Below, piece after piece: positions 1,918 to 19,299 of a stretch of DNA of 64,000 nucleotides (position 1 is the stretch's first letter; each line of letters begins with the position of its first letter). Below the pieces are notes generated by a model, which was not told where the DNA came from, did not search any database, and saw nothing but the letters and a program-made list of their open reading frames with translations. Position numbers and translations under genes: made by a program. The stretch comes from Novosphingobium sp. CECT 9465 (lineage in GTDB: Bacteria; Pseudomonadota; Alphaproteobacteria; Sphingomonadales; Sphingomonadaceae), in the NCBI RefSeq assembly GCF_920987055.1, contig NZ_CAKLBX010000001.1, positions 1,660,501 through 1,724,500 on the forward strand, written 5' to 3'.

Positions 1918-1994
1918 GCACCCGTAGCTCAGCAGGATAGAGCACCAGATTCCTAATCTGGGGGCCATGGGTTCGAATCCCGTCGGGTGCACCA
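1918..1994 (+). tRNA. tRNA-Arg (anticodon CCU)
   Basis: A full 77-base cloverleaf. GCACCCG (1918-1924) pairs with CGGGTGC, the anticodon stem is CCAGA/TCTGG with loop TTCCTAA (anticodon CCU), the T loop is TTCGAAT, and CCA is encoded at 1992-1994. It reads AGG codons. Its 3' part (1948-1994) is the integration target of the neighbouring element. The element carries a copy of this part, so the tRNA remained whole after insertion, and the displaced original end lies at 19251-19299. Confidence 0.97.
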
Positions 1995-1996
1995 TT
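1948..1996 (+). repeat. attL: 49-bp direct repeat inside tRNA-Arg
   Basis: These 49 bases, from the anticodon stem through CCA plus TT, are identical to 19251-19299. The flanks differ at once on both sides (A versus C before, A versus T after), which sets the repeat limits. Use of the anticodon-to-3' end of a tRNA gene as attB is classic for tyrosine-integrase elements. Confidence 0.95.
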
Positions 1997-2122
1997 AATT
2001 CTCTTTATATTTCAGATATTTATCTCACGCCAAACAGCGAGGCAGGGCCGGAATTGAGTTGCGTCCGTGTTGCACTGAATACCACTGATTTTCTTGGTTT
2101 CCCACCGCGTCCCGGCGAGTCC

Positions 2123-2144
2123 ATGCAACACAGATGCAACACGG
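2123..2144 (+). repeat. tandem 11-bp repeats, candidate integrase arm-type sites (left)
   Basis: ATGCAACACAG (2123-2133) is followed at once by ATGCAACACGG (2134-2144). An inverted copy of the core, TGTTGCA, is at 2068-2074. A matching pair built on the same TGCAACA core and the same 11-bp step lies at the right end, next to attR. Direct repeats one helical turn apart inside both ends are typical of the arm sites bound by the N-terminal domain of integrases. The binding protein is inferred. Confidence 0.55.
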
Positions 2145-2155
2145 TGGACAAGGCT

Positions 2156-2446
2156 TCACTTCGCCATGCGGCCAGCGCTGTCCGTTGATTTGCGTTTGCG
2201 CCAGTACTGGCCGGAGCGTACCCAAACGAGGTCAAGATCACCCCCGCTGGTCAACTTGTTGAACTCGACCAGAACAGCCTTGGCGATACCCCAGTTGCGC
2301 TGCTTATTGCGGTAAACAAAAGCTTCGCCAAACTGGACTTTGATCTTATGCGCGACACTCTGTTGATAGAGATTCCCGGTTGGGCTGATCATGCCCACCA
2401 TAAATTCCGCTACGTCGCGTGCGGTCGGCTCTACACTGTCCGTCAT
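2156..2446 (-). CDS. small accessory protein, DUF6953-like
   Basis: A 96-residue soluble protein at the left end of the element, downstream of the giant ejection-like gene. The pattern, an N-terminal helix (VAEFMVGMI), a short middle part with FGEAFVYRN, then AKAVLVEFNKLT and a C-terminal LVWVRSGQYWRKRK, resembles the small DUF6953 family as I remember it; no search was run. No catalytic motif is visible. The position suggests a late or cargo gene. The stop lies 160 bases from attL. Confidence 0.55.
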   Translation of the reverse strand: MTDSVEPTARDVAEFMVGMISPTGNLYQQSVAHKIKVQFGEAFVYRNKQRNWGIAKAVLVEFNKLTSGGDLDLVWVRSGQYWRKRKSTDSAGRMAK

Positions 2447-2598
2447 CGAATGCCCCCATTACTCTGGTCCTACCGAGATGGGCGATGTTGAGCGCAATAC
2501 AAGTGAAGTGAACACCAACTGTGGATAACGCAGCAAGGGCACCAACCATAAGCCGATGCCCTTGCGCCACACGTGTTCTCAGGACACGAAGAATACAC

Positions 2599-5500
2599 CT
2601 ATCCGCCGTCGTCTTCAATCCTCCCGGTACGCACGCCCTCCCACCAGTCGCCCATATCTTGCGGCGCAGCGTCACCAGACATCACGTCCATAAGGAACTG
2701 TGCCGACGCCGCACCCTGTCCCGGTACAAGCCCGGTGACGTAGCCAGCAGCCTCCAGCGTGTTCCGTGTGGCGCGCGTAGTCTCTTTGCCCTGTGCGACC
2801 TTGCGCACGTCCCCTGCGACCCGCTCCAGCGATTCGCCGATGCCCTGCACAGGTGTGAAGCGGTAGCCGAACGACTTGTCGCCTGAGAGCTTGCGACCGA
2901 CGACGGGCACGATGTCGCGCAACAGCGGTATCGGCGCGGCCAAGTTATAGACCGACTGTTTCGCCGCCCATTCGGTCCAGCTTTCCTCGTTGTCATCGTC
3001 AGGGCCGTTGCCCGTCAGGATCGCGGGCAGGACCGGCGAAATGACGCCAATCAGCAGGCCGCGCATCGCGAGTTCCGGGATCATCTTTTTGTTCCGGCTC
3101 CGCCGCGCATCGCCAACGTCCCAGCCCAACTCAATGAACCGCTGGAGGCTGGCAGACTGGAACGAATAGAACTGCGTCAGCACCTTGCCGAGTTCACCGG
3201 CAGGACCGCGCCCGCGCTGGATTGCCGCCAGATCCTTTGCAGCGCCCGCGCCTTGGCTTTCACGGACAGCCGAATCCGCTTCGTGCACGGCCTGGTCCTG
3301 TTCCATGCCCGCCGCGATGGCCTTGTTATAGGCACCAATCCACGTCGGGATGACGACAATGCGGTCGAACATACTGATACCCGAGAACGCGTAGCGCTGG
3401 ACCATCGAAGCGAGGTCAGTCTTACCGGCGAACCGGCGCACGTTTTCGCGAATGTCACGGTCGAGCGTATCGAAACGGCTTTGCAGTTCGAGACTGCGCT
3501 CCAATGCAAACGCGCTCGTTTCGCGGGGATGGCGCAGCGTGGCATTCATCCCGGCCGCAAACCACTTCGGGCCGACGCGCTCGACGGACATTGCATAGCC
3601 GCCAAGCTGAGAGATCATCGTCCCGATCCGGTAGGCCATGCCCACGAACGTGGTGTTGCGCCGCGCCGCCCGCATGAAGCTTTCCAGCTTGCTCATACCC
3701 GCACGGTCATAAACCCATTCGTTCGCGATGAACTGGAGCCACGGGCGGAACAGGCCCGACACGTCAGGCCCCATAGTTTCGTCAACGGCATCCATCAGGC
3801 GCTTGTCGCCAAGGAAGCGCCAAGCCTGCATGACGGCTTCGCGATGCGTCAGGTCGTGCACCACTTCGGCAACGTGCCGATTGATGACATCGAGCGAGAG
3901 CAGCACGGGCCGCTGCACTTCGGTGCGTTCTTTCGTGAAGCCGCGCGAGGTCGAGGGGCGCGTATATCCGTTCTCGTAAAGCTTGCCTTCGCCCTTGGCC
4001 GCGTGTTCATTGGCGGTGCGGCTGCGGGCAGGGTCATAAACAACCGGGAAGTAACCACCACGCAGCACACCCGCCGACGTGGTCAGGACGCGCGGGCGAA
4101 CCGCATCAGGCTCAATGCCGTTAACCCGCTTTTCGAGTTCGACAATGCGCGGCCAGAACTTGCCGATGGTATCCCATACCGCCTGGACATAGCGCCACTC
4201 TTCGGACTGCAGTTCGGCATCGAGGACGCGCATGACTTCAGCTTCCCGCCAGCCATAGCCACCGGCCAGCTTGGACGCGTTGCCTTCGTTACCCATGTTG
4301 AGCGCCATCGATATCAGGCGCGACCGAGGCCCCTGCATAGGCTCCCGCGTACGGGGATCGAACAGGCTCGCAACCGTTAGCGGGTCGTTCCACGTCGCGA
4401 GGATTTTGGGGGGAACCTTGCCAAGGTGCCCGTCCAGTTCGTCCAGCACTTCGCGCATCTGCTTATGTTCGTCGGCCTGAGCCTTGGCGAGAGGCTGGAA
4501 CACCACGCGGTTGAACGCCCCGTGACGGCTACCGTCGAGCCGATGGAACACGGTTTCCATCTTGAGCAGGGCAGCGCCGATACCGAGCGCACCGCTCTTG
4601 ATGTCGTCCCACTTCGAAGGATCATCGAAGCTTTTGACCTTGCGCAGCGGCAGGCGTTCCATCGTCTTGACGGCTTCACCGACCAGCGCGTCAAGCTCCC
4701 GCTGTTCCTGATTATCGAGCAGCGTCTGCTTGAGCCGACCGAGATGGAGAATCTGCTTTACTGCGTCATCAAGGCCGAGCAGTTCTTCCGCCGACAGCTT
4801 CGTCCAATGCGTCTTGCCAATCATCGTGGCGAACGATTTGGGAACCGCGATGGTGTGGCCTTCGTCCTCGCGAGCATTCGCCCACGCTTCGAACGACTGC
4901 TTGCGGTCTACCGCCTTGCCCGTCCGTTCCTTGAAATCGACCTGCGATAGAAGCTCATGCGCCTGGTCTAGATATTCCGCATCGACCCCGGCAATCTTCT
5001 TGCGAGACGCCACGCGGTCAAGCCGGGTTATTGCCGTGTCGATTTCCTGAGCAGCATCGCGCGCTTCACGAACCAAGGCGTTGTTCAGCAGTTGGGCTTG
5101 CTTGTGGCGGAATGCCAGATCGACCTTGCCCGCCGCCAGCGCCTCGAATGCCGCCTTCGAGTTCATCGCAGCCGTGCGCCGGTATTGCTGGATTGCAGCG
5201 CGGCTAATGTGATCGCGGACTTCGCCCGACCGTACACGGCGACGTGCCCACTCCCGCGCCATGCCGTAAGGGGTAGGACGCTTGGAGGTGCGCCGAGCCA
5301 GTGCCCGCACTTCCGCCGCGATGACTTCGCCCTGTAGATCGTTGTGGACCGCCGCGAGCGCTTCCTCTTCGATCTTGCCCGTCGTGAAGGGGTCGCCATA
5401 GCGCTCAGCCATCACGTCATGGGTTTCGGCATCGATGGTCGCTTGTCGGACGGTACGCTTGTCACCCGCCGCCCGCAGGCCCTTGCGCTGCTTTTCCAGC

Positions 5501-8500
5501 CCCATCAGCGTCTCGACAAGGTTGCGCCCATCCCGCAGCCCCAAGGCTTCAGCGAGACTGTCAGGATGGACGCCGCCCTCCCGGTAGGCTGGAGGCACCG
5601 ACGCGGGAAGGAGTTTCAGGGAATCGGCCCCGAAACGGTCTATGACCCAATCGCGGTTAAGCGGCTGAGTGCGGATCGCTTCAAGGGCACGGAACGCAGG
5701 GCGAGCATCGACCGACCGCGACACTTCCGCCCGGGCCTCATTTTCCCAAAGGCGATACTGGTCAGTCTGCCGAGCCTTGAGAGCGCGAAGCGACTTTGCC
5801 AGCAGTTCGCTGTTAGCGGTCGATTTGGCCTGTGCGACCAGATCCATATAGGCATCGAATTCTTCGCGCGTCATGCCGCCCGAGGCAGCATCGGCGAACA
5901 CCGGGTCCAGACCTTGCGCTTCGCTCTTTTCGGCAATCTCCTGATCGGTGGCGAGCAGCCGGTCCATCACGCGGCGTACGTCGTCCGAGATAGGCGACTT
6001 GAGATTCTGCACCCGGCGATAGAGGCCGACCATCCAGGCGCGCATGGTCTCGAACACTTTGAGCAGCGCCGAGGATGGCGACTTGCCTTCCATGAGATAG
6101 CTCTCAAACCCCCGCGCCCACAGTTCGTGGGCACCGACAGGAATGTCCTTACCGACCTTGTGACCGTTGGCAGAGAACCAAGCCTGCACGGCCTTCCAAT
6201 CGGCCTTGAGCTGTTCCGGCGCGTCGGGAAGAGCCGCGTCTGCCTTCAGTTCCTCAAGCCACAGATGGCCGCTTTCGTGCAAAAATGTGCTTAAATTTCG
6301 CGATTGAAACAATTGAACGACCGCCTTGCCGTCAGCAGTGAAGCTGATCTTGCCGCGCTCGCCGCTGTTGTACGAACGGCCCGAACTGTCGCCCTGAGTG
6401 TATCGACCGATGAAGTCCCGGATTTCGCCGTCCGACATCGAAGCCGGATCACGGCCAGCGTCGGTCAGCATTTGCCCCAGCTCTTCCGAGGCTGCGCGCA
6501 TGGCGTCAACCTTGGGATCGCTGGCGTAACGTGCATTTCCAGCAAGTTCATCACTGATTGCGGATATGAGTATCTGTGTGTCGAGCGTGCCCGTGTCCTG
6601 TCCTGCAAGCTCCGGAAAGAAGCCCGCTTCGACAGCTGCGCGCAACGTGGAGTCGTGACCGTAATCACCATTGCCGCTAATGCCGCCCATCGACGCCGCA
6701 GGGTCGAAGTCCCGAATAGCCTTGCGCCGGAACGGCCTTTCCTTGTGCCAATCAGCAAGCCCGACCGCCTTCAGATCGCCGCCGAGGTCGTTGATGCCGC
6801 CGCGCTGCACGATCCATTCAACCAAGCTAGGCCCGCTCTGGACGGTCGATGGCTGGCCACGACGTAGCGCATTGATGACTAGGTCGGTTGCATCGGCCTT
6901 GGTCGCCTCCCGCAGCTTTTCCGGCAGGACTTGTTCAATCCCGACGTGATCGAACTCCGTACCGGTCACAGCGCGTCCGAGCCGGTCGGACCGTGACATA
7001 TAGCGTTGCGTCACTAGTTCGGCCTGCACCCGCGCCGTGTTGGGACTGAATCCGGCACCGGCCAGCTTTTCGAACGCCGACGAGAACAGGCGCGTGCGAG
7101 CCTGCCCACTTGAAGCATCGACCAGCACCGACAGGTCGCTTTCCATCAGGCCTTGCTCATCGGCCAGTGCGAGCGCTTCGGATCGGCTCACACCGCCCGC
7201 CGACATGCGCATGTCATTGCGCAGCGCATCCCATGCAGGCGTCCCCGCAATATGCGTCATCGCCGACGACACCGGCAGCACGACATCGCCGCCCGTGGCT
7301 TCAGCGCTGGCAAGGTCGTCTTCCAGCGAACGCCAGAAGTCGGAGTCCTCAAACCCCGGCGACTGCATAAATTCGCGGATCTTCTCAGCCGGGACATAGA
7401 CCCTGTCACCCGTCATACTCTCGGTCAGGTGATCCATCATGGCTTTGAAGCCGTCCGGATCGCGCGCGCGCAGTTTGGATTCGCCCGCGCCTTCGCCAAG
7501 CCGATCTAGGAAGATGCCTTCCGCCTCAGCCTGTGCGCGCATGGTGTGCCGCTGTTCGGCCTTGCTTGCGACCGCATGCAGCCCGCCCAACGTCCCGGCA
7601 GCGACGAGCACGCCCAGCGCTGTTTGATAAGCCGCTTCGGGGCGTTCTGCGATGAACTGCCCCCAAGTCTTGTCAGGGTTGGCAATGGCCGTATCGACCG
7701 CGTCCTGCGCGAACGTCGTCGCCTGTTCCGACAGCATTTCTTTGGCAAGCACTTCACCAATGAATTTGCCGGTTGCACCCTTGCCGAACTTCGACACGAC
7801 AGCCGCCATGGGGATCGCTTCGAACCCGGCTTCGATAGTGCCTTCCAGCAGCGCGCCCGTAGCAGACTCAGCACGAGTGCCACCGCGAACACGATACTTG
7901 CCGTATGCGGTTCCGCCCGTCTGAATACCGGCAACCGCCATCGCGGGGACCGGCGAGCGCGTGATGATCGACGCGGCCACACCCGGAGCCATCTGAGCGA
8001 CCGAGGCGAAACCACCATATATGCCGCGCGCCGTCTCAGATCGAAACGCAGGCGTTGAGGTCTCCACGTCATCTTGCGCCTGCACGATGTCCGAACGCAA
8101 GCGGTCAGAGTACGCGGTCCCGCCCTGCAGCCACTTCGGCGCGGGAACCCAATCGTCGATTGCCAGCGACAGGCCAGCATCCATCTGTTTCCAGCCACCG
8201 ACGAGGCTCGACCATACGCCTTTGACGCTGTTGACGAACGTCGGGTCTACCGGCTCAGGCGCGCTGATCGACCAACCGCGCGCAAGCTCTACAGGATCGA
8301 AGGCACGGCCCATCTTGCCCAGCGCTCGCGTATCATCTGCCGCCGCAGCTGCATCGCGCGGGTTGGCTTCGGCCCATGACCCGATGCGCGGAAAGATGCC
8401 CATCGTGTTGATGAAGCTGGTTGCCTGGTCGGCAATCTGAATTGCCTGAAGTTTGGGATCGACAGCCGCAGCAGGCAGGCCCCGCGCACGAGCGATCCTG

Positions 8501-8691
8501 TTTGCCTGTGCCGCCGCATCAGGGGCAGGGGCAGCACGCAGGATCGCACCGACCTGCCGATTGCGCCGCCGCGCGATGATGTCGTCATAAGGGTTTGCCG
8601 CCTCAGGGACAGGCTCGGGCTGGAAGGTGTGGAACGTGCTGGCCGGTCGCGCCTGCTTGCGCCGAATGATGTCGTCGTAAGGGTCGCTCAC
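2599..8691 (-). CDS. giant phage virion-type protein (2030 aa) with HExxH zincin motif, gp16-like ejection protein candidate
   Basis: An unbroken 2030-residue reading frame starting with GTG, which overlaps the upstream stop (GTGA, 8691-8688). The N-terminus has two copies of a PYDDII motif followed by Arg/Lys. A hydrophobic Ala/Gly-rich stretch lies around residues 220-380, and a zinc-protease-like HESGH is at residues 805-809. The middle is long, charged and helical. The C-terminal part (QGAGAAKDLAAIQRG, then a hydrophobic segment with ISPVLPAILTG) resembles the ends of very large podoviral and polyvalent phage proteins. Together with the two upstream genes it looks like a T7 gp14-gp15-gp16-type set, whose proteins leave the virion to form a channel through the cell envelope. 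Family identity is by pattern only. Confidence 0.7.
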   Translation of the reverse strand: MSDPYDDIIRRKQARPASTFHTFQPEPVPEAANPYDDIIARRRNRQVGAILRAAPAPDAAAQANRIARARGLPAAAVDPKLQAIQIADQATSFINTMGIFPRIGSWAEANPRDAAAAADDTRALGKMGRAFDPVELARGWSISAPEPVDPTFVNSVKGVWSSLVGGWKQMDAGLSLAIDDWVPAPKWLQGGTAYSDRLRSDIVQAQDDVETSTPAFRSETARGIYGGFASVAQMAPGVAASIITRSPVPAMAVAGIQTGGTAYGKYRVRGGTRAESATGALLEGTIEAGFEAIPMAAVVSKFGKGATGKFIGEVLAKEMLSEQATTFAQDAVDTAIANPDKTWGQFIAERPEAAYQTALGVLVAAGTLGGLHAVASKAEQRHTMRAQAEAEGIFLDRLGEGAGESKLRARDPDGFKAMMDHLTESMTGDRVYVPAEKIREFMQSPGFEDSDFWRSLEDDLASAEATGGDVVLPVSSAMTHIAGTPAWDALRNDMRMSAGGVSRSEALALADEQGLMESDLSVLVDASSGQARTRLFSSAFEKLAGAGFSPNTARVQAELVTQRYMSRSDRLGRAVTGTEFDHVGIEQVLPEKLREATKADATDLVINALRRGQPSTVQSGPSLVEWIVQRGGINDLGGDLKAVGLADWHKERPFRRKAIRDFDPAASMGGISGNGDYGHDSTLRAAVEAGFFPELAGQDTGTLDTQILISAISDELAGNARYASDPKVDAMRAASEELGQMLTDAGRDPASMSDGEIRDFIGRYTQGDSSGRSYNSGERGKISFTADGKAVVQLFQSRNLSTFLHESGHLWLEELKADAALPDAPEQLKADWKAVQAWFSANGHKVGKDIPVGAHELWARGFESYLMEGKSPSSALLKVFETMRAWMVGLYRRVQNLKSPISDDVRRVMDRLLATDQEIAEKSEAQGLDPVFADAASGGMTREEFDAYMDLVAQAKSTANSELLAKSLRALKARQTDQYRLWENEARAEVSRSVDARPAFRALEAIRTQPLNRDWVIDRFGADSLKLLPASVPPAYREGGVHPDSLAEALGLRDGRNLVETLMGLEKQRKGLRAAGDKRTVRQATIDAETHDVMAERYGDPFTTGKIEEEALAAVHNDLQGEVIAAEVRALARRTSKRPTPYGMAREWARRRVRSGEVRDHISRAAIQQYRRTAAMNSKAAFEALAAGKVDLAFRHKQAQLLNNALVREARDAAQEIDTAITRLDRVASRKKIAGVDAEYLDQAHELLSQVDFKERTGKAVDRKQSFEAWANAREDEGHTIAVPKSFATMIGKTHWTKLSAEELLGLDDAVKQILHLGRLKQTLLDNQEQRELDALVGEAVKTMERLPLRKVKSFDDPSKWDDIKSGALGIGAALLKMETVFHRLDGSRHGAFNRVVFQPLAKAQADEHKQMREVLDELDGHLGKVPPKILATWNDPLTVASLFDPRTREPMQGPRSRLISMALNMGNEGNASKLAGGYGWREAEVMRVLDAELQSEEWRYVQAVWDTIGKFWPRIVELEKRVNGIEPDAVRPRVLTTSAGVLRGGYFPVVYDPARSRTANEHAAKGEGKLYENGYTRPSTSRGFTKERTEVQRPVLLSLDVINRHVAEVVHDLTHREAVMQAWRFLGDKRLMDAVDETMGPDVSGLFRPWLQFIANEWVYDRAGMSKLESFMRAARRNTTFVGMAYRIGTMISQLGGYAMSVERVGPKWFAAGMNATLRHPRETSAFALERSLELQSRFDTLDRDIRENVRRFAGKTDLASMVQRYAFSGISMFDRIVVIPTWIGAYNKAIAAGMEQDQAVHEADSAVRESQGAGAAKDLAAIQRGRGPAGELGKVLTQFYSFQSASLQRFIELGWDVGDARRSRNKKMIPELAMRGLLIGVISPVLPAILTGNGPDDDNEESWTEWAAKQSVYNLAAPIPLLRDIVPVVGRKLSGDKSFGYRFTPVQGIGESLERVAGDVRKVAQGKETTRATRNTLEAAGYVTGLVPGQGAASAQFLMDVMSGDAAPQDMGDWWEGVRTGRIEDDGG

Positions 8692-10760
8692 TGGCCAGAT
8701 ACTCGCTCGACAAAGAGGGTGACACGGTTGGCGTCATTCACCGGCAGGCCGTTCCGGCGCAGAGCGGCATCGATTTGATTGAGTGTGGTTGAGGGTATGT
8801 CCGCGACCGAAACGTCATGCGCGCGCACGTCTGTTTCGTTCGACCCCCACAGAATACCGGGCCGCTTGACCGTGACGGAACGCGTTGCCAGCGCGAAAGC
8901 GTCATCCAGTTCCTTATCCGTTGGCATGCGCTTGCCGCCCGTGCCCTGCGATACCGCTGCTTCCATCAGGCGGTAGACTTCCAGCCAGTCCGACTTGTTG
9001 CCGCTGCCGGTCAGGTTCATGTCGGGTGTCGCGAACGTGTTGATATGGCCCGCGATGGCCGTGCGGATGCTTACCTCTTTGGTTCCACCAGTCTTGATGC
9101 GCGACCGGTCGGCATCGAGGCGGGCGAACTCTCCCGGCGTAAGCTTCGCGGCAGAGCCATTGATATCCATTGCTGCAAACTGTTCGGGCGCTTCGATTGC
9201 GAGCCGTTGCAGGCGCAGGAATTCAGGCCCGTTTGCCTCTATGGGCTTGGGCGCTGAATTAGCCTTCGCCATATCCGAGAACGACGATACCGCGTCGATG
9301 CTCATACGGTCACGAACGTCTTTTGGGATTTGATCGAGAGACTTGAAACCATCGCCTAGGCCGACAACCACCTTCTTGGCTTCGTCATCTGCCTCGCGTT
9401 CCTCGCGTGCGTCGATGGAATCTTTGCGGGAGAATTCCTGATCGACCCACTGCTTGGCCCGTTGCTTCCGCTCAAACGACCACTCAGCATTGCTGTCGAT
9501 CGACGCATAGGCAGAGCGTTTGTCCCACTCCCCCGCCGCTTGGGCCGAGGGTGCATTGCGCCCGATGTACTGCATCGGATCCACCGCCTTGCCGTTCTTG
9601 CGCGCCACGACGTGGACATGTGGGCCGGTTGTGTTGCCGGTCATGCCGACAGGGCCGAGCGTTGTCGTGCTGGTCACCTGATCGCCACGCTTGACGCTAT
9701 GTGTCCCGAGGTGGGCATAGCTGGTCGTGACGCCGTCGCCATGATCCACGATCACAAAGTTGCCCGACCGTGCATCCGATCCGACCGCAACGACAACACC
9801 TCCAGCAAGAGGAGAGACCGCCGAACCTTCCGGCGCAGCGAAGTCTACCCCGTTGTGCGCACGACCCTTGCCACGCTCAACCCCATAGGCCGACGTAATG
9901 CGTCCATTCTTGACGGGTGGGGTAAACTTCGCGCCGGGTGACGATGCTGGCACTGGACCACCCTGACCAATCGCCCACTGTGCGTCAGTGGAGGCCTGCC
10001 GGGTTTCGATTGCCCCGCGCATGCCCGACGACACCGCCGTCAGATCGCCGAGCGACATGCTCCCGAGGTGGGCCATGCCGTAATCAAGTGCGCCGTCCAC
10101 ATCGCCCTGAGCTTGCAGGGATTCGACAACGCCGCGATGCACCGAGCTTTCGTATTCGTGTTCCGCCTGGGCGATGCTTTCGTCAGATGACCCGGCCAAC
10201 CGCTGCTTTTCGCGGATCGCTTCCCGGCCAAGCTGGACCTGTGCCGCCACCGCTTCGGGCTGTTGCCACATGCGGGCCGCTTCTTCGCGGGATTTGACCG
10301 CCTGCGCGCCAAAGGTCTCGCTTGCCGCCGCTCTGGTCTCTGTGACCTCGTGTTCCGCCAGTTCGGCACGGTACGAGGTCATGTAAATGTTCGTCTTTTC
10401 CTCAAGCAGCTTGCGCGCACGAGGGCTGCGGGCTTGTGTCAGCAGCGTTTGCCGCGTCTTGAGCAACTGTTCCTCTGCCGACTTGAACGCCTTGCCCGCA
10501 TCAACGCCGCGCGAGGCTTTGGCATTCGCCAGCACTTCACCGGCTTCGTCCTGAAACGTCAGCGTGCTGTTGCCGACATCGGTCTTATCCTGCTCCAGTT
10601 CGAGGCCGTCTTTCATCTCAGCATATTTGCCGAGTATCTTGGCAGCACCACCGAGGGCAGCAGCGAGCGGGCTGTCTCCGAACTCTGGCGTGCGCAAGCG
10701 GGCGTTCGTGGCTTGGACCGAGCCGACCTGATTGGGGTTGTAAACCGGAGCGCGTGGCAT
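8688..10760 (-). CDS. phage virion protein with M23 endopeptidase domain, gp15-like ejection protein candidate
   Basis: 690 residues. The N-terminal 270 or so residues are helical and charged, as in phage internal core proteins. A LytM/M23 zinc peptidase domain follows, with His302 and Asp306 (HNGVD) and His381-x-His383 (GPHVHVV), so all metal ligands are present. The C-terminal 300 residues are again helical. M23 enzymes cut peptide cross-bridges in murein, which suits local wall opening during DNA entry. It sits between the gp14-like gene (2 bases upstream) and the giant gene (4-base overlap), so the three are surely co-expressed. The peptidase domain is secure; the ejection role is inferred. 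Confidence 0.8.
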   Translation of the reverse strand: MPRAPVYNPNQVGSVQATNARLRTPEFGDSPLAAALGGAAKILGKYAEMKDGLELEQDKTDVGNSTLTFQDEAGEVLANAKASRGVDAGKAFKSAEEQLLKTRQTLLTQARSPRARKLLEEKTNIYMTSYRAELAEHEVTETRAAASETFGAQAVKSREEAARMWQQPEAVAAQVQLGREAIREKQRLAGSSDESIAQAEHEYESSVHRGVVESLQAQGDVDGALDYGMAHLGSMSLGDLTAVSSGMRGAIETRQASTDAQWAIGQGGPVPASSPGAKFTPPVKNGRITSAYGVERGKGRAHNGVDFAAPEGSAVSPLAGGVVVAVGSDARSGNFVIVDHGDGVTTSYAHLGTHSVKRGDQVTSTTTLGPVGMTGNTTGPHVHVVARKNGKAVDPMQYIGRNAPSAQAAGEWDKRSAYASIDSNAEWSFERKQRAKQWVDQEFSRKDSIDAREEREADDEAKKVVVGLGDGFKSLDQIPKDVRDRMSIDAVSSFSDMAKANSAPKPIEANGPEFLRLQRLAIEAPEQFAAMDINGSAAKLTPGEFARLDADRSRIKTGGTKEVSIRTAIAGHINTFATPDMNLTGSGNKSDWLEVYRLMEAAVSQGTGGKRMPTDKELDDAFALATRSVTVKRPGILWGSNETDVRAHDVSVADIPSTTLNQIDAALRRNGLPVNDANRVTLFVERVSGQ

Positions 10761-10762
10761 CC

Positions 10763-12179: not shown

Positions 12180-12222
12180 GTGTGTCCCTCCAGACGGAGG
12201 AAGCTGCACCGCGCACCTATCG

Positions 12223-12241
12223 ACCGTCGTTTCGCGACGGT
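12223..12241 (+). other. perfect 7-bp inverted repeat in a divergent intergenic region
   Basis: ACCGTCG and CGACGGT are separated by TTTCG. The repeat lies between the coiled-coil gene (reading left from 12179) and the secreted-protein gene (reading right from 12302). No T-run follows on either strand, so it is more likely an operator or a leader hairpin than a terminator. Confidence 0.45.
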
Positions 12242-12301
12242 AGGGTTGATGCATATGCGGTTGAATCGCGGTACAGGTGGCGAAGCAATCAGGGGATCGA
12301 G

Positions 12302-12649
12302 ATGATAGCTTTCGTCATGGCCGCACTACTCGGAGCGTCCGAGCCTGCCAGTGCCTCACTCTCGACCGGCGACATGCTGCCCGTGGCGTCCGCGAAGTTG
12401 AGCGATTGCATCGTCTACAATGCCGTCAGGGCAGATGATGGAACGTCTGATGTCGCTGGCCTTGTCGAAGGTGCCCGTATCAGTTGCGCCACGAAGCTGG
12501 GAATCTGGCGGTACGTCGCGCGAGCGTACATCGTCGCACAACATGGAGCGGTGGACACCGACAAGATCACCGCCGGTTCAGAGCGCTCATTCTTCGACAC
12601 GGTCAACACGAAGGTTGCAACCCTGATCGAGGCTGGCCGGAAGAACTGA
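12302..12649 (+). CDS. small secreted protein on the opposite strand (moron candidate)
   Basis: 115 residues with an N-terminal hydrophobic signal (MIAFVMAALLGASEPASAS) and a likely cleavage site after ASA, so it is probably periplasmic. Two cysteines (in DCIVYN and ISCATK) could form a disulfide. It reads against every neighbouring gene and sits exactly where the element goes from packaging-type to ejection-type genes, the place where terL, portal and capsid genes would be expected. Independent orientation is typical of lysogenic cargo genes, for example superinfection exclusion, but the function is unknown. Its 3' end overlaps the HGG-protein gene tail to tail. Confidence 0.6.
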   Translation: MIAFVMAALLGASEPASASLSTGDMLPVASAKLSDCIVYNAVRADDGTSDVAGLVEGARISCATKLGIWRYVARAYIVAQHGAVDTDKITAGSERSFFDTVNTKVATLIEAGRKN

Positions 12650-12802
12650 GAACCGACCGTGCTTCCAGTTGGGGTTATCCGCCCCACGCGGCGCGCCGGG
12701 TGACTTCCCGCCGTGGCGATGACAGCGCCCGTTGTGCATTGCCCGTGCACCACAGACGCCGCCGTCCCGCCGACGTGCCCCGCAGGGATTACGAGAACAC
12801 AT
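12587..12802 (-). CDS. HGGxSxG-motif phage protein
   Basis: 71 residues from ATG 12802, or 84 from an upstream start at 12841. It carries the cysteine-rich head CSRNPCGARRRDGGVCGA, then GRCHRHGGKSPGAPRG and WKHGRFS. This is the short HGGxSTG-type phage protein often found near terminase genes and sometimes misnamed as a glucan-synthesis protein. The cysteines and histidines suggest a zinc site. The shorter start just overlaps the end of the upstream gene (12789), as is usual in this operon. The function is unknown. The 3' end overlaps the opposite-strand gene by 63 bases. Confidence 0.7.
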   Translation of the reverse strand: MCSRNPCGARRRDGGVCGARAMHNGRCHRHGGKSPGAPRGADNPNWKHGRFSVLPASLDQGCNLRVDRVEE

Positions 12803-13172
12803 CGCGCACGGTAACGTCACTATCAGGGACCGACGAGCCATCGCAAACGGCGATGCAGTATTCCTTTACAGTCCTGCCGTCGCTACGCCGCTTGAGTTCG
12901 GCTTCGATCAACTGTTCGTGCCCCATGCCATCGGCGCGAAGCCCATCACTGAGCGCATGGACACGCTTGCGGCTCGATTGAACGCGCTCCTGCATGTCCG
13001 CCCATATCGCCTTAAGGCTCTGGTCCCGTGGATCAGCATAGCGGTTCATCACCATATCCAGCGTGGCGCGCACCTCAGCCTCATCGCCTGCGTCAGAGAA
13101 GTGGGTGAATATCTCGCCAATCTCACGCCGCTCAGCCGGTGAAGCTCGTTTCAATATCTCTAACAGATGCAT
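12789..13172 (-). CDS. hypothetical phage protein downstream of terS
   Basis: A 127-residue charged, helical protein that begins three bases after the stop of the small terminase gene. The N-terminal part (EILKRASPAERREIGEIFTHF) looks like a helical bundle. I see no catalytic motif and recognise no family. In full phages this position is normally taken by, or leads into, the large terminase gene, but the protein is far too small and has no Walker A motif. Confidence 0.65.
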   Translation of the reverse strand: MHLLEILKRASPAERREIGEIFTHFSDAGDEAEVRATLDMVMNRYADPRDQSLKAIWADMQERVQSSRKRVHALSDGLRADGMGHEQLIEAELKRRSDGRTVKEYCIAVCDGSSVPDSDVTVRDVFS

Positions 13173-13175: not shown

Positions 13176-13688
13176 TTACCCTTTCCGTTTTTCTGCCGCG
13201 TGCATGATTGCCGCCAGCCTCACTGCAATGTCTTCGGTGCTCATCTTGCGCGCACGATTATCCAGGCCATCCATGCCGCCGAGGCGTAGGGCGGTTGAAT
13301 CCCCGTAGCGCTTGGGGGCCAGCTTCCCGGCCAACCACTTGCGGCTATCGACGCGAAGCCTTGCCCGCTGGACGTGCTCAGGGACGAACGTCTGCCCGTC
13401 TTCGCCCTGCACATAGTCCGCGCCGGAATCGTCGCTGATTTCGATCACGTCTTCTGCTAACGTCTCGGCAAGCAGTTGCTTGGCAATCTGGTACGCCGTC
13501 CGGAACTCGACATCGGTCGCCAGCCATTCGAACACCGTCGTTTTCGAAGGCATGTCTTCGTCCAAGCATATCTTGCGGACGCTCTCACCCAGCATGAGCC
13601 GCTTGCAGATCGTCACCTGTACGGGCGTCAGTTCCTTTTCCTCGCGTGCGCGCGCGGGCGCGGGGGCGTAATGGTCCGGTCCCGCCAT
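13176..13688 (-). CDS. terS: phage terminase small subunit (Sf6-type)
   Basis: 170 residues. The N-terminal half has a helix-turn-helix-like segment (QVTICKRLMLGESVRKICLD, then MPSKTTVFEWLA). It is followed by FRTAYQIAKQLLAETLAEDV and, near residue 110, RARLRVDSRKWLAGKLAPKR. This is the usual layout of the Sf6-like small terminase/DNA-recognition family. Such proteins pick the packaging site and hand DNA to the large subunit. No large-subunit gene follows. In phage satellites a stand-alone TerS redirects a helper's packaging motor, so this gene matters for judging the element. The start overlaps the upstream stop (TAATG). Confidence 0.8.
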   Translation of the reverse strand: MAGPDHYAPAPARAREEKELTPVQVTICKRLMLGESVRKICLDEDMPSKTTVFEWLATDVEFRTAYQIAKQLLAETLAEDVIEISDDSGADYVQGEDGQTFVPEHVQRARLRVDSRKWLAGKLAPKRYGDSTALRLGGMDGLDNRARKMSTEDIAVRLAAIMHAAEKRKG

Positions 13689-13963
13689 TATCTGCCCCCG
13701 ATGTCGCTGATGTCGTCGTCCAGTTCACCCGGAGCGAGGCGCGAGGCGCGGGGAGGGCGCTCTGCCCGTGCATGGCGAGGGGCGCGCCGAGATGCACCGT
13801 CCTGCTTGGGTTGCGAGACGTAGACCTGCCATGTCGGCTCCTCTGCCTCGCGATCAAGGAACGCCACCACAGACGCCTTGCCCAGCCAGCCCGACAAGTA
13901 GCGATTACCGCTGGCACTGATCCGCTCGCGCAGATCGAACAAATGTACCTTGCTATCCATCAT
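13688..13963 (-). CDS. hypothetical phage protein (91 aa)
   Basis: A 91-residue protein: a globular first half (KVHLFDLRERISASGNRYL, ending with WQVYVSQPKQ) and a basic then acidic tail (RRAPRHARAERPPRASR, then DDDISDIGG). The first half looks like the small single-strand-binding-like or modifier proteins common in sphingomonad prophages, but the match is only an impression. The ribosome site GAGGAG lies ahead of two ATG codons at 13963 and 13960. The stop overlaps terS (TAATG). Confidence 0.6.
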   Translation of the reverse strand: MMDSKVHLFDLRERISASGNRYLSGWLGKASVVAFLDREAEEPTWQVYVSQPKQDGASRRAPRHARAERPPRASRLAPGELDDDISDIGGR

Positions 13964-13976: not shown

Positions 13977-14858
13977 TCATTGCGCGGGGACCAGAGCGTC
14001 CGCCGACAGTTCCAAGCACGCAGCTTCGAGTTGATTGAAGGGGAGCATCCGCCCGCAGGCTTCTTGCAGGGGGATGCGGTAATGGTCGGGCAGGGACCGG
14101 CCAGCGCGGAACCGTGACAACGCCGCCTCCGGTATCTGAGCATTGTGAGCCAGACGCCGAGCGCCGCCATATCCAACCATGTCGATGATGGTCCGTGACC
14201 ACCGCCGCAGTTCGGTCAGTTCGAGGCGCAAATCGGCCCGCCGTAGTTTCTCACCTTGAGACGGCAGACTTTCAGACCCCGACGACCCAGCCCCATACTG
14301 GTTATCTATAAGCAGTGTTGTATTCACACCGACACATGGGGTGCAAAACTCAGGACTTGCCGCATCATCAGTTGTGAAAACAACAACGGAGTTTTTCACC
14401 ATCGTTGTTGTTTCAACACCGGAAAGGGGGTCCTGCGTTGTTGTTCTCACACCGCCGAATTTCCGAGTTTTTCCAGCAGCAGGCCTCCAATCGCGATAGT
14501 CATTGGTCGCCTTCTCGATGTTGCGCGGCTTTCCCGTGGACACGAACGTCAGGCGGTACTCACGAACTTTCGCGTGCTGGCGGTCAGCATCCGAGACGCA
14601 TTCGAGGAAGCCGTGCTGTATAAGCTCTGCCACCGCCTTGGCGTTCGGGCCGTGGTTCTTGTTGCCCAGCCTCGCGCCGATCGCATGAATGCCGAGGCCG
14701 AGATGCCCGTTGTTGTAACCGTCGTGGCGGTCCTGGAATACCTGCAGGACAGCGCGCGCACGAAAGCTCAGATGCTTCCATGCGACGCTGTCGATGACAG
14801 CGCGGGGCGTCTGGAAGAAGTTTCCATTGACGTCGGCTTTCTGAGGTCCTCCAGCCAT
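13977..14858 (-). CDS. winged-helix replication-type phage protein
   Basis: 293 residues. The N-terminal 110 or so resemble phage replication and helix-turn-helix proteins: FFQTPRAVIDSVAWKHLSFR, then HAIGARLGNKNHGPNAKAVA and a closing wing strand (VREYRLTFVS). A Thr/Val-rich, probably flexible linker with repeated TTT segments follows, and a C-terminal helical domain with another HTH-like segment (LAHNAQIPEAALSRFRAG). It is likely to start replication of the element or regulate it. The start overlaps the previous stop (TAATG). The linker (about 14260-14480) is less GC-rich than its surroundings. Confidence 0.6.
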   Translation of the reverse strand: MAGGPQKADVNGNFFQTPRAVIDSVAWKHLSFRARAVLQVFQDRHDGYNNGHLGLGIHAIGARLGNKNHGPNAKAVAELIQHGFLECVSDADRQHAKVREYRLTFVSTGKPRNIEKATNDYRDWRPAAGKTRKFGGVRTTTQDPLSGVETTTMVKNSVVVFTTDDAASPEFCTPCVGVNTTLLIDNQYGAGSSGSESLPSQGEKLRRADLRLELTELRRWSRTIIDMVGYGGARRLAHNAQIPEAALSRFRAGRSLPDHYRIPLQEACGRMLPFNQLEAACLELSADALVPAQ

Positions 14859-15232: not shown

Positions 15233-15235
15233 CGT

Positions 15236-15511
15236 TCAGGGGGTGCCATCGTTTGCGCCCTCCTCATCGCTGGAGAGGCGAAGGAACGGCAAACCGCTGC
15301 GGTAAAGGTCGGCACCCTTCGTAAGCATGCTGACATGGTGGCGATGCCATTCGCGCGCGTAGTCATTCGCCCCCTTCGCAGAGAGCGTGAAGTGTTCAGC
15401 CTGATGCAAATCAGGATCCCCATCGATTGTGGGAATGTGTGTCAATACCTCGTAACCAGCGCCCAGCCTTGAGGGCCGCACTTCGACGCCGAACAGTCGA
15501 TTGCGCGTCAT
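15236..15511 (-). CDS. hypothetical early phage protein (91 aa)
   Basis: A 91-residue protein with an N-terminal beta-rich part (RNRLFGVEVRPSRLGAGYEV) and a charged helical second half (NDYAREWHRHHVSML). No family was recognised. It starts inside the stop of the HTH gene (ATGA at 15511-15508), so the two are coupled. It sits among the early genes between the regulator-like and replication-type genes. Confidence 0.6.
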   Translation of the reverse strand: MTRNRLFGVEVRPSRLGAGYEVLTHIPTIDGDPDLHQAEHFTLSAKGANDYAREWHRHHVSMLTKGADLYRSGLPFLRLSSDEEGANDGTP

Positions 15512-15690
15512 GCTGTGACACCCCTTCCTGCGACCCAGCGGTCGAGGTCGGCCAGACGGTAGCGAACGCCCCGGCCATCACGATGGAGGCGGGTGAATTC
15601 CGGCCCGTCTCCTCGTGCGCGCATTGCGGCGAGAGTGCGCTCAGACAGCTTGAGATAGCGGGCCGATTCAGGTGAAGTCATGAGTTCCAT
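15508..15690 (-). CDS. excisionase/AlpA-type HTH DNA-binding protein
   Basis: 60 residues, the size of one winged-helix domain. SPESARYLKLSERTLAAMRA is the helix-turn-helix (HTH_17/MerR-like), and the wing has GVRYRLADLDRWVAGR. Proteins of this type are recombination directionality factors or small regulators in integrative elements. AGGGG is placed seven bases before the ATG at 15690. It is the second such protein in the element (the other at 17025-17201), so one may serve excision and the other regulation. Confidence 0.75.
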   Translation of the reverse strand: MELMTSPESARYLKLSERTLAAMRARGDGPEFTRLHRDGRGVRYRLADLDRWVAGRGVTA

Positions 15691-15763
15691 AGGACACCCC
15701 TAAGTTGATTGTGCATGCATGCAGGAGGCTACCGCTTGAATGAATCGCGCCGCATGCCCATGC

Positions 15764-16021: not shown

Positions 16022-16023
16022 GG

Positions 16024-16323: not shown

Positions 16324-16326
16324 GGC

Positions 16327-16875
16327 TCAGCCCTCCACCAGCAGGCGGCGGCAATCCGCGAGCGTCTGCGCCAAAAGCTCTATGTTGTAGGGGTCGAGCG
16401 AACCGCTGGAGCCTTGGAAAAGATATTCCAGCTTCCATAGAAGAGCGGGGCGATCCGGAGCAGGCATGCCAATTAACTCCCACCGGATATCGTTCTCGAT
16501 ATCGCAAAGCCGGTCGGCTTCGTGATCATCCAACGACGCGCTGGCTGCTATTGCTTCGTAAGCGTGTAGCGCGATGGTATGGCGGCGCATGGCCTGCGTC
16601 CAACCGACACGGGTTTGGTCATCACCATTCAGCCGTGCGGTGATATGGTTCTTTATCCGCTGCGCGTCATCGGTGCCAATCTGGCGCATGAGTTGCGCAG
16701 CAAGTCTGCGGTTTGCTTCTTTGGCATTGGTCTGCAAAACCCCAAGCAAGAGTTCGCCATCCGGCGTGAGCCAATAGCCCCCGCCAAGTTCGGTAAAGTA
16801 AGCAAGGAAGCTTGCCGGATCGGTTCCGAGATCAGTTTCGCAGGCAAAGTTCGCCCGATGCTGGAAATCAGCCAT
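16327..16875 (-). CDS. hypothetical early phage protein with duplicated C-terminal module (182 aa)
   Basis: 182 residues from ATG 16875, preceded by AGGA; the frame stays open to 16935 but without a better start. The first part (GGGYWLTPDGELLLGVL) is a small beta-rich unit. The middle is helical, and the C-terminal 45 residues match the next protein's tail. I know no function for this type, which I associate only with sphingomonad phage islands. It is the first of a run of small leftward genes after the HTH gene. Confidence 0.6.
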   Translation of the reverse strand: MADFQHRANFACETDLGTDPASFLAYFTELGGGYWLTPDGELLLGVLQTNAKEANRRLAAQLMRQIGTDDAQRIKNHITARLNGDDQTRVGWTQAMRRHTIALHAYEAIAASASLDDHEADRLCDIENDIRWELIGMPAPDRPALLWKLEYLFQGSSGSLDPYNIELLAQTLADCRRLLVEG

Positions 16876-16983
16876 TTCGTCAGTCCTTTCAATGGTGGCG
16901 CGCCTGTGCGCCGATGGAACTACTTGAGTTCCCACACGAATTGGCTTAGGACTGAGGCGTCAGGTCTCAATTGACACCCCCAG

Positions 16984-17012: not shown

Positions 17013-17024
17013 GGTTTCAGGGCA

Positions 17025-17201
17025 TCAAGCCGCAACTGAGCGGAATGCAGCCTCCAGTTCCGACTTGCGGAAATAGAGCTTGCGGCCTTTGCGGATCACC
17101 GGGAGCAAGCCTTGTTGAACCATGTGATATATGGCGCGGTCGTTCTGGCCGATGTATGCCGCCGCCGCCTTCGCTCCGCCCAAAAGATCATCACTAAGCA
17201 T
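17025..17201 (-). CDS. small HTH DNA-binding protein (excisionase-like, 58 aa)
   Basis: A 58-codon gene running from ATG 17201 to TGA 17025. The protein begins MLSDDLLGGAKAAAAYIGQN, continues DRAIYHMVQQGLLPVIRKGR and ends KLYFRKSELEAAF. This is an HTH_17/MerR-like winged helix in which IGQNDRAIYHMVQQG is the recognition unit. It is the first leftward gene and faces the 241-residue rightward gene across a 121-base divergent region with a palindrome. That is the normal place for an excisionase or early regulator. Confidence 0.8.
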   Translation of the reverse strand: MLSDDLLGGAKAAAAYIGQNDRAIYHMVQQGLLPVIRKGRKLYFRKSELEAAFRSVAA

Positions 17202-17226
17202 TTACGTGGCCTCCGTTTAGTGTGAT

Positions 17227-17253
17227 GTGCAACCTTCCTATGCAACGTTGCAC
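17227..17253. promoter_or_regulatory. palindromic operator candidate in the divergent control region
   Basis: A perfect 12-bp palindrome TGCAACGTTGCA (17241-17252) lies 13 bp after another TGCAAC (17228-17233). The whole stretch starts GTGCAAC and ends GTTGCAC. It is located between the leftward HTH gene and the rightward 241-residue gene. The TGCAAC core is the same as in the end repeats of the element, so the integrase, an excisionase or the regulator could bind here. Confidence 0.5.
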
Positions 17254-17322
17254 AAGCTAGACTTATGCCATGCCATCCTCTAACGCAAGGTTCCTTAGAA
17301 ACTTTTCTTTAGTGGGGGCGAT

Positions 17323-18048
17323 GTGCCTGATTCTTGGCAATTCGGTCAGCTTGAAGGAGTGCTCGCCGCGCTCCACCTAATCCACCCGTCCAAGCGTACA
17401 GCCTTTCAGGCACGCTTAAAAAACTTTCATCGCCTTGGATTTCCGGGAGATTTCAGAGCGATAAAGGGCCGAGCCGCACAGTACACCGCAGGTCAGTGTT
17501 TCCAAATCGCGTTGGCAGTAGAGCTGACCCAGCTTGGCCTACCGCCTGAACGAGCAACCACCATTATCTCGCGTAACACGTTCCCAGTTGCGTCCGCAGT
17601 TACGTTGGCCGCTCAATCGTTGATCTTGGCGGAGCATGGCAAGATCGAGGAGGGAGACGATATATTACAGATGTACGTCTATTTTGACCCAAGATCTTTA
17701 GATGCTTTATGCGATGAGACGGAGCAGGATAATATAAGCGACCTCGAATCGTTCTTCTACGGCGGGGCAGAGCTAGTTTCGGAGCTTCTTAAAAGGTCAT
17801 CATTCGAAGATTCGCCTAGGCTTTCGCTTGTCAACATAACTCGAGTTCTTGCGACTGTGGGAGCACTGCTCCCGGGGAACTTCTTGGAGCCCCTGCTGGA
17901 CTGGTCGGATGCTGCCGTCCGATCTATTGATGAGTTCGAGGCCGAAAATGCGTTGGTTAAGCAAACCTACCGGGATGAGGGCAAGAGCGACCGCTATTAC
18001 GACGTTTTAAGGGAACTGTTCAGAAAGCACTCCAATGGCAATCCGTAA
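17323..18048 (+). CDS. probable element regulator, MerR-like N-terminal region (241 aa)
   Basis: 241 residues starting at GTG 17323. Residues 35-85 (HRLGFPGDFRAIKGRAAQYT, then ALAVELTQLGLPPERATTII) resemble the MerR-like regulators found in many alphaproteobacterial islands. The rest is helical and unassigned. It overlaps the integrase start by 14 bases and is divergent from an HTH gene, as a lysogeny regulator would be. The second half (17640-17780) has more A and T than anything nearby (for example GATATATTACAG), which fits recent acquisition. The function is inferred. Confidence 0.55.
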   Translation: MPDSWQFGQLEGVLAALHLIHPSKRTAFQARLKNFHRLGFPGDFRAIKGRAAQYTAGQCFQIALAVELTQLGLPPERATTIISRNTFPVASAVTLAAQSLILAEHGKIEEGDDILQMYVYFDPRSLDALCDETEQDNISDLESFFYGGAELVSELLKRSSFEDSPRLSLVNITRVLATVGALLPGNFLEPLLDWSDAAVRSIDEFEAENALVKQTYRDEGKSDRYYDVLRELFRKHSNGNP

Positions 18049-19192
18049 GCGCGCCTGGACCGCGCCGGACGGCAGCGAGAAAACGGCTTGGCTGGTCGAT
18101 TACAAGGATCAGGCCGGGAAGCGCCGCGCCAAGCAGTTCGCCCGCAAGAAGGATGCGGAAGCGTGGCGGGTAGGTGCTGCATGGCAGGTGAGCCAAGGCG
18201 TGCACACTGCCGACTCGCAATCTGTGACTGTCGCCGCCGCTGCCGATCTGTGGATCAAGAAAGCAGAGGCAGAGGGCAGGGAGCGCGGAACCATCGCTCA
18301 GTATGGCCAGCTTGCCCGAAAGCACATCGTGCCCTTCCTTGGCGCTGAGAAGCTGTCACGCCTCACCCGGCCCGCCATCGAGGCATACCGCGATGAACTT
18401 ATCGCAACGCGATCCAAGGCCATGGCAGGCAAGGCGGTGCGTGCCCTGTCCAGCATCTTGACCGAAGCGCAGCGCCGGGGCCTCGTTGCGCAGAACGTAG
18501 CCAGTGGCGTCAAGGTAATCCGGCAGGCCCGCGAACGCGCCAAGATTACCATTCCCGACAAGACCGAGCTAAAAGCGATTCTTGACGCTGCTAGCGACGA
18601 TCTACGGCCCATGCTGCTTACCGCCATATTGACGGGTCTGCGTTCATCCGAACTGCGGGGGCTGCGCTGGTCGGACATCGACCTAAAGCGCGGTCGGCTT
18701 TCGGTAAACCAGCGCGCCGACAAGTTCGGAGAGATTGGACCGCCGAAGTCGGGGGCTGGTTATCGCACGATTCCGATAGGGCAGGCGTTGGTCAAGGAAT
18801 TGACCGCATGGAAACTGCGCTGTCCGAAGGGACCGGAGGGGCTGGCGTTCCCGAACACTGAAGGCGGTGTTCAGCAATACGGCCACCTGTTGCGCCGGAA
18901 GTTTCTGCCCTTGCAGGTCAAGGCGGGCGTCTGCGATCCGGTGATCGAGGATGGCAAGCCCAAGCTGGACAAGAAGAGCCTGCCAACGATGCAGGCCCGC
19001 TACGGCTTCCACGCTCTACGCCACGCCGCCGCGAGTGCCTGGATAAAGCAGAAGATCGACTTGAAGCGCCTGCAGGTGTGGATCGGGCACGAGAGCATCC
19101 AATTGACGCTGGATACCTACGGCCACCTTATCACGGATGCGAGCGGGGACGCGGCTATTATCGCTGCTTCACAGGCCGAATTGCTGGCTTAA
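18035..19192 (+). CDS. int: tyrosine integrase
   Basis: 385 residues with every catalytic residue of the lambda-integrase family: Arg203 (TGLRSSELRGLRW), His326 and Arg329 (FHALRHAAASAW), His352 (IGHESIQLTL) and the nucleophile Tyr362 (DTYGHL). The N-terminal 60 residues (GSEKTAWLVDYKDQAGKRRA, then QFARKKDAEAW) are an arm-binding domain, and the core-binding SAM-like domain spans about 70-165. The gene ends 58 bases before attR and points at it. It should catalyse integration into and, with a directionality factor, excision from tRNA-Arg(CCU). It is intact, so the element may still be mobile. Confidence 0.95.
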   Translation: MAIRKRAWTAPDGSEKTAWLVDYKDQAGKRRAKQFARKKDAEAWRVGAAWQVSQGVHTADSQSVTVAAAADLWIKKAEAEGRERGTIAQYGQLARKHIVPFLGAEKLSRLTRPAIEAYRDELIATRSKAMAGKAVRALSSILTEAQRRGLVAQNVASGVKVIRQARERAKITIPDKTELKAILDAASDDLRPMLLTAILTGLRSSELRGLRWSDIDLKRGRLSVNQRADKFGEIGPPKSGAGYRTIPIGQALVKELTAWKLRCPKGPEGLAFPNTEGGVQQYGHLLRRKFLPLQVKAGVCDPVIEDGKPKLDKKSLPTMQARYGFHALRHAAASAWIKQKIDLKRLQVWIGHESIQLTLDTYGHLITDASGDAAIIAASQAELLA

Positions 19193-19213
19193 GTGCAACA
19201 CCAGTGCAACATG
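19192..19213 (+). repeat. tandem 11-bp repeats, candidate integrase arm-type sites (right)
   Basis: AGTGCAACACC (19192-19202) and AGTGCAACATG (19203-19213) lie directly after the integrase stop codon and about 40-60 bp inside attR. They share the TGCAACA core and 11-bp step with the left-end pair at 2123-2144. Arm-site function is inferred. Confidence 0.55.
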
Positions 19214-19250
19214 GACCGAGAAATCCTAATTAAATCAAAGTCGCGCGGAC

Positions 19251-19299
19251 GATTCCTAATCTGGGGGCCATGGGTTCGAATCCCGTCGGGTGCACCATT
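19251..19299 (+). repeat. attR: displaced 3' half of tRNA-Arg
   Basis: A 49-bp perfect copy of 1948-1996 (anticodon loop to CCA-TT). The 5' half of a tRNA is absent, so this is the original chromosomal tRNA end pushed aside by insertion, not a functional tRNA gene. Confidence 0.95.

Follow-up and report, generated by a model that had tools for sequence, protein, structure and literature searches.

A 17.3-kb integrated element occupies positions 1948-19299 of a 64,000-nucleotide stretch of the Novosphingobium sp. CECT 9465 genome (G000:C1:1660501-1724500, hereafter the window), where it lies between 49-bp perfect direct repeats. It combines a gene for a small terminase subunit (TerS) with a long cassette of virion-type ejection genes and appears to have lost the head, packaging-motor and tail genes that accompany them in complete phages. 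The element probably belongs to an old lineage of mobile phage satellites whose ancestor was a BPP-1-like podovirus, and the existence of relatives with the same reduced plan suggests a lasting parasite of complete phages, not a recently broken virus. A fuller proposal, advanced tentatively at slightly under an even chance, is that these elements form a new satellite family that borrows the whole outer particle (head, portal, terminase motor and tail) from a helper podovirus, supplies its own internal ejection machinery and goes back to a single old event in which a BPP-1-like prophage lost its head-tail block.

Gene content and parent phage type

The element is bounded by two identical copies of the 49-bp repeat on the forward strand, attL (1948-1996) and attR (19251-19299), the former lying in the 3' part of a tRNA-Arg(CCT) gene (1918-1994, identified with ARAGORN). 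A tyrosine integrase gene on the forward strand is open throughout (18035-19192; PF00589, 2e-18; phrog_1, 3e-68), so that the element has both the integrase and the specific att site of phage-inducible chromosomal islands (PICIs). On the reverse strand, an Sf6-type terS (13176-13688; PF20901, 2e-35; phrog_1482, 2e-34) is followed by small genes and then by the ejection cassette, which runs to the left end. The cassette consists of a gene for a T7 gp14-like internal virion protein where BPP-1 has Bbp12 (10763-11257; phrog_418, 6e-27), a gene for a 690-aa M23 peptidase protein in the place of the endolysin gene Bbp11 (8688-10760; PF01551, 3e-27; BPP_lysoz11, 2e-7), and a gene for a 2030-aa large internal or ejection-type protein homologous to Bbp10 (2599-8691; phrog_9880, E=0). 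The cassette (2599-11257) is open throughout and fills 8.7 of the 17.3 kb. The gp14-like protein matches Pfam T7_gp14 (PF24072) at 7e-4, below the family cut-off; judged by the starts of its homologues, its gene probably begins at 11257, residue 77 of the listed open reading frame (ORF), and not at 11485. An earlier reading made from the sequence alone had proposed the perfect repeats, the intact integrase, the small terminase subunit and the intact ejection-like genes with their 2030-codon frame, all of which were borne out.

Twenty ORFs were taken as genes and scanned against Pfam and PHROGs, and no large terminase (TerL), portal or capsid was named among them; the only tail and head names returned, tape measure and minor head protein, stem from the M23 peptidase domain. 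Searches with phmmer using the proteins of BPP-1, UFJF_PfDIW6 and Carin1 found no terL, portal, capsid, connector or nozzle gene in the element, while the same queries matched its TerS and cassette and recovered terL, portal, capsid, connector and nozzle in same-genus prophages. The tail-fibre gene that follows Bbp10 in BPP-1-type phages likewise had no match in the element. The lack of TerL, portal, capsid and tail genes noted in the sequence-only reading stands for TerL, portal, capsid and tail nozzle. It is very improbable that the element is a reduced temperate phage whose head, portal and TerL proteins went unrecognised: several ORFs have no family match, as that explanation would need, but the unassigned ones among the 20 are at most 293 aa long, and the cassette takes up half of the available length. 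TerL and portal proteins are normally longer than 293 aa.

Head genes might instead be drawn from another locus of the same genome. A cluster with Phage_capsid (PF05065), portal and TerL genes is found elsewhere in the window's genome (L094, 8581-13272; G000:C1, ~2.824-2.828 Mb) and is possibly a gene transfer agent. Supply from this HK97-family capsid cluster, whether gene transfer agent or other prophage, is nevertheless highly improbable, as 40 kb at that site gave no match to a portal, capsid, nozzle or connector of BPP-1-like type, and ejection proteins presumably suit the portal and tail they belong with.

Matches to the 2030-aa protein came from 42 phage records, including Bbp10 of BPP-1, gp16 of UFJF_PfDIW6 and gp32 of Carin1, all at identities below 60%. 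In BPP-1 the order is terS, terL, portal, protease, capsid, cement, two tail genes, internal virion protein, endolysin and Bbp10, with small genes interspersed. Like the podoviruses BPP-1 (Rauchvirus), UFJF_PfDIW6 and Carin1, the element has a TerS homologous to Bbp26 and a cassette in the order Bbp12-Bbp11-Bbp10; what sets it apart is that nothing in it matches their terL-to-nozzle block or the tail-fibre gene after Bbp10. On the evidence of gene homology and order, the parent type is a BPP-1-like podovirus. The element does not hold the complete terS-terL-portal-capsid-nozzle-ejection module of such a temperate phage.

Complete versions of this arrangement occur in the same genus. The large protein was found in 19 of 195 genus genomes, and its surroundings were read in all 19. 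A tail-nozzle gene of BPP-1-like type is present in 12 of them: beside the large gene in ten (G157, G159, G191, G199, G201, G202, G210, G212, G239 and G313), on another contig in G264, and in a distant type in G214. In ten same-genus genomes, prophages thus carry head-tail genes beside the same cassette, and in six (G191, G199, G201, G212, G239 and G313) terS, terL, portal, protease/scaffold, capsid, cement, connector and nozzle form one block. G157, G202 and G264 are cut by contig ends, and G210 and G159 are degraded. Of the terS-to-nozzle block of full prophages, the window element keeps TerS alone. The reduced form was observed in three of the 19 genomes (G000, which holds the window, G183 and G338) and a relic in one (G307); G215, G222 and G301 gave weak, short matches to the large protein and were not placed. 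Across 397 genomes of the family, a three-row profile of the large protein matched 19, mostly over short stretches; the two read for surroundings, G122 and G017, contain full prophages.

Two further observations concern the full prophages. An ORF in G159 (C44, 52630-53406) matches both terL and portal proteins and is probably a deletion scar in a BPP-1-type prophage. The gene preceding the gp14-like gene in full prophages (L064, 16908-17399, and its counterparts) looks acetyltransferase-like by eye; it had no Pfam match and no match in the reduced elements.

Reduced relatives and the history of the loss

One relative is an element of 15.9 kb in G183 (C59), inserted at tRNA-Arg(TCT) between repeats at 17133-17182 and 33022-33071 that differ by one mismatch in 50. 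It carries terS (27191-27772), an o127-like gene, a weakly ribbon-helix-helix-like gene, a cement gene, an o236-like gene, a gp14-like gene and a large gene of 2035 aa, together with an anti-repressor, an O-like replication gene and a different integrase, distant from that of the window (24% over part). Only small genes separate its TerS from its cassette; matches to terL, portal, capsid and nozzle are lacking, and so is the M23 gene. The cement (head decoration) gene of this capsid-less element (L063, 5805-6233; PF21190) is of BPP-1 type and corresponds to Bbp16, the cement protein of BPP-1 (PMC3863775).

A second relative, in G338 (C22), measures 16.6 kb, has its att site at tRNA-Cys and shows the same order as the window, with int, xis, o91 (82% identical), o84, o236, o93, gp14-like and M23 (70%) genes; TerS was absent among the matches listed for that genome. 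A third, L197, is the IMG/VR contig 3300026115_000231 (20,057 bases, the reading starting after the first 1,453), on which integrase, HTH_17 and AAA_25 protein genes, terS (6054-6578), two small ORFs, a gp14-like gene (7318), a Phage_lysozyme2 protein gene and a 2040-aa gene follow one another, all of them open. As an IMG/VR entry L197 need not be a particle, and it may be an integrated copy. An AbiJ/HEPN-type defence-like gene adjoins its integrase (295-1221). A separate 17.4-kb island at tRNA-Cys in G308 (C36:195927-213393; L090/L091) holds an integrase, a Prim-Pol, a TerL of PfDIW6 type and an o236-like gene; no large gene and no portal or capsid match was found in it, making it a TerL-bearing headless island.

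L197 came from an IMG/VR search with the aligned large proteins of window and G183, which matched 54 loci. A nozzle-type gene is present on 34 of these, two (L203 and L221) begin inside the large gene, L197 is reduced, and 17 (L232 and L235-L250) match only within residues 124-389. A three-row alignment again returned 54 loci with the same locus names, and a scan of IMG/VR with the large protein alone gave no match.

These relatives bear on the alternatives raised from the sequence alone, which were a satellite or a prophage that had lost its head genes in one deletion, the open frames being put down to selection or a very recent loss. Full prophages with the same flanking genes do exist, but the element is not unique: a recent deletion confined to this genome is contradicted by G183 and L197, which share the reduced plan, and by the truncated version in G338. 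A search for relatives pairing the same integrase with the ejection genes had been proposed; reduced relatives were found, and the G183 integrase differs. Integrases are open, and att sites differ, between the window (tRNA-Arg(CCT)), G183 (tRNA-Arg(TCT)) and G338 (tRNA-Cys). Because integration sites and integrases differ, the elements would have moved after their reduction.

Phylogenetic trees placed the large proteins of the window, G183 and L197 in one clade (100/100) with no sampled full phage inside it, a grouping also obtained in an earlier tree with two reduced members. The three proteins are 59-63% identical to one another (63% over 2007 aa for window and G183) and 40-47% identical to twelve phages and prophages of the same branch. 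The three-member tree was built without the partial G338 and G307 proteins, G313 and PfDIW6, and all large-protein trees without the broken or partial proteins of G210, G264 and G214 and most of the 54 IMG/VR loci. TerS, on the other side of the missing block, gave the same clade, at 99/99 in a first set containing two named phages of 140 matching records, and at 100/100 after addition of six phage-record proteins taken from the top rows of phage searches with the three reduced-element TerS proteins. Both TerS trees were made without eight weaker genus matches, and their genus rows G194, G195, G157b, G200 and G173 were used with phage context not checked. Because both genes flanking the missing block are monophyletic, one loss before the window, G183 and L197 elements diverged is the simplest history, and judged from these sequences one old loss of the head-tail block fits best. 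A long-lived, satellite-like lineage is on these grounds favored over a very recent loss.

The genes also look constrained at the codon level. Nonsynonymous and synonymous divergences (dN and dS) were 0.31 and 1.72 for the large protein of window and G183, 0.21 and 1.58 for the M23 protein of window and G338, and 0.39 and 1.11 for TerS of window and G183, and all frames compared are open. The persistence and movement of this type of element are supported by the trees and the att sites.

Proposed packaging by a helper and competing explanations

Comparison of the window TerS with those of same-genus prophages identified G191, which has a TerL of BPP-1 type, as the closest at 45% identity, with the reduced-element proteins forming their own clade. 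In the first TerS tree G191 was the nearest neighbor (fork 91/97), a placement no longer resolved once more phages were added, and a G191-like phage as helper is a guess. Identity between the window and G191 proteins is 22/66 in the N-terminal part and 24/40 in the middle, a pattern that a change of DNA target would produce, although the sequences are too few for a claim. A full phage with a homologue of the large protein is missing from G000, G183 and G338, so any helper would need to be a phage arriving from elsewhere or one of a different type.

Packaging by a helper is inferred from the gene content, and the cycle might run as follows. During growth of a related full phage in the same cell, the satellite would excise; its TerS would mark satellite DNA and hand it to the helper's large terminase, which would fill helper-made heads bearing the helper's portal and tail. 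These particles would also take up the gp14-like, hydrolase and 2030-aa proteins of the satellite, which would later help the DNA through the envelope. In T7-type phages, internal proteins enter the particle and are ejected. The elements of the window, G183, G338 and G308 measure 15.9-17.4 kb, or 37-41% of the 42.5 kb of BPP-1, and their lengths may, as a weaker inference, point to small heads; a candidate redirector of head size is o236, though it has no match in L197. There are precedents among PICIs: in some of them TerS selects DNA for the helper's motor, and certain Gram-positive ones bring about heads that are a third as large as those of the helper (PMC6092414).

A number of observations weigh against a satellite lineage of this kind. 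The enlarged TerS tree does not settle which phage TerS is nearest and so does not point to one type of helper, and the reduced genomes named above offer no resident helper of BPP-1-like type. An intact cassette is found in three members only (window, G183 and L197). G183 lacks the M23 gene and keeps a cement gene; o236, o127, o93 and o84 have no match in L197, in which no tRNA was found to mark the borders and which carries a second, broken integrase at the contig end. Synonymous sites are almost saturated, and some of the constraint may have been inherited from phage ancestors. In the tree of gp14-like proteins most branchings lack resolution and the reduced elements do not come together, so the cassettes may be mosaic. 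Decay is also evident: G338 is truncated, with its large gene cut to 466 aa, G307 is only a relic, and the G308 island, which carries a TerL, has a gp14-like gene that is broken.

The decay and the ungrouped gp14-like genes are what would be expected if the elements were defective prophages that lost terL to nozzle in separate deletions and persist as relics that are not transferred, an explanation to which the broken genes of G210 and the terL-portal fusion of G159 also lend weight. It is considered unlikely, given that three elements about 60% identical in an open gene of 2030-2040 codons form one clade in both flanking genes, that dN is low against dS, and that open integrases occupy different att sites in the window, G183 and G338. 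Defective (cryptic) prophages do resemble the element in being phage-derived by gene loss; they differ in that the reduced form here is common to diverged elements as one clade, with open genes and different integration sites. More doubtful still is a satellite or island whose ejection-type proteins serve not its own transfer but interference with related phages, by acting as false core proteins or blocking superinfection. Phage interference is a listed PICI feature (PMC6092414), and gene content between TerS and the cassette varies, as such a role might entail; however, the ejection proteins are full length and in phage gene order, and PADLOC returned nothing for ten accessory ORFs, a scan that did not include the ejection genes. 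The bolder reading as a satellite is better supported than that of a prophage deletion.

Accessory genes and relation to known satellites

Among the small genes, o236 (11544-12254, reverse strand) was seen only in reduced or headless elements, with matches in G183, G338 and G308. Its AlphaFold2 (AF2) model (pLDDT 88.6) predicts a long helix at residues 42-138, and as a guess it is a candidate capsid or packaging modifier with a role in head size. The model had no match in PDB or BFVD at E <= 0.001, and the best hit of a PDB sequence search had E 0.035, the rest being weaker. The possibility that o236 is a known phage protein in disguise was rejected after null profile comparisons with A3 (the gene preceding the gp14-like gene in full prophages) and A5 (a scaffold/protease family). 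Four full-length matches and one partial match (G176) were found in the 195 genus genomes; the 397 family genomes gave the window's own copy plus six partial hits on longer proteins, and a large protein collection gave six proteins, one of them that of the window. Searches of IMG/VR with o236 and o127 gave none, and o93, o236 and o127 had no match in the prophage and IMG/VR stretches searched. With no match in L197, o236 was rejected as a family-defining gene.

Other candidate markers fared no better. The M23 protein, with no match in IMG/VR, is useless as a marker, as it matches 195/195 genus genomes, nearly all by the peptidase domain alone. The pairing of the integrase with the upstream 241-aa gene (17323-18048, forward strand) was rejected as well, since this gene accompanies the same integrase type in other islands. 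No empty integration site was demonstrated: the left flank is kept in relatives, and the right-flank genes were not found within 1.5 kb beside it.

The remaining genes lie on the reverse strand unless stated. A 202-aa gene of unknown role (16327-16935) has a homologue in G338 (5e-33). Two excisionase-like HTH genes had been proposed from the sequence, and one is supported, an excisionase/AlpA-like HTH_17 gene (15508-15690; PF12728, 2e-10; phrog_66, 3e-9; 63% identical in G338). The supposed replication-type gene, of 293 aa (13977-14858), occupies the place of a replication gene by position only, having no significant match in Pfam or PHROGs. Shared with G338 are o91 (13688-13963), o84 (12587-12841; 52% over 52 aa) and o93 (11259-11540; 43%), while o127 (12789-13172) is common to G183 (38-40%, 3e-26). 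A forward-strand ORF (12182-12649) with no family match is a possible cargo gene. A small DUF6953 gene of unknown role (2156-2446; PF22266, 2e-20; phrog_10782) separates attL from the large ejection gene, a place taken by tail-fibre genes in full phages; phmmer found no match to it in the prophage stretches compared.

With PICIs of the SaPI/PICI type the element shares an integrase at a specific att site, an AlpA/excisionase-like HTH protein and a lone TerS without TerL or capsid genes. PICI content is given as int, regulator, rep and interference genes, and sometimes TerS or capsid-redirecting genes (PMC6092414); the window element adds an 8.7-kb cassette of virion-type ejection proteins. It likewise departs from a description of phage satellites as being without virion structural genes (PMC13376191), since it has virion-type genes for gp14-like, M23 and 2030-aa proteins. 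Other satellites, the capsid-forming PICIs and Mulch/Flayer, are described as bringing terminases, portal and capsid, the capsid-forming PICIs needing helper tails (PMC10690885); hitchhiking elements are treated in PMC11389934. The window element resembles them in supplying part of the virion itself and differs in keeping the opposite part, ejection proteins with no head and no TerL; of the capsid-forming set (capsid, protease, portal, connectors, TerL and TerS) it has TerS only. No satellite family name was obtained from NCBIfam (nine proteins, one from elsewhere in the genome) or PADLOC (ten ORFs), and a limited search of the open-licence literature, weak evidence of absence, found no description of a satellite with its own ejection proteins.

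The element would be the inverse of capsid-forming satellites, with the container borrowed and the entry machinery kept. Because the same loss is common to elements that are about 60% identical in their largest protein and occupy different integration sites, there is one lineage to study, and it would allow testing whether podoviral ejection proteins are exchangeable between particle and cargo. If the proposal is true, the satellite controls how its own DNA crosses the envelope of the next host.

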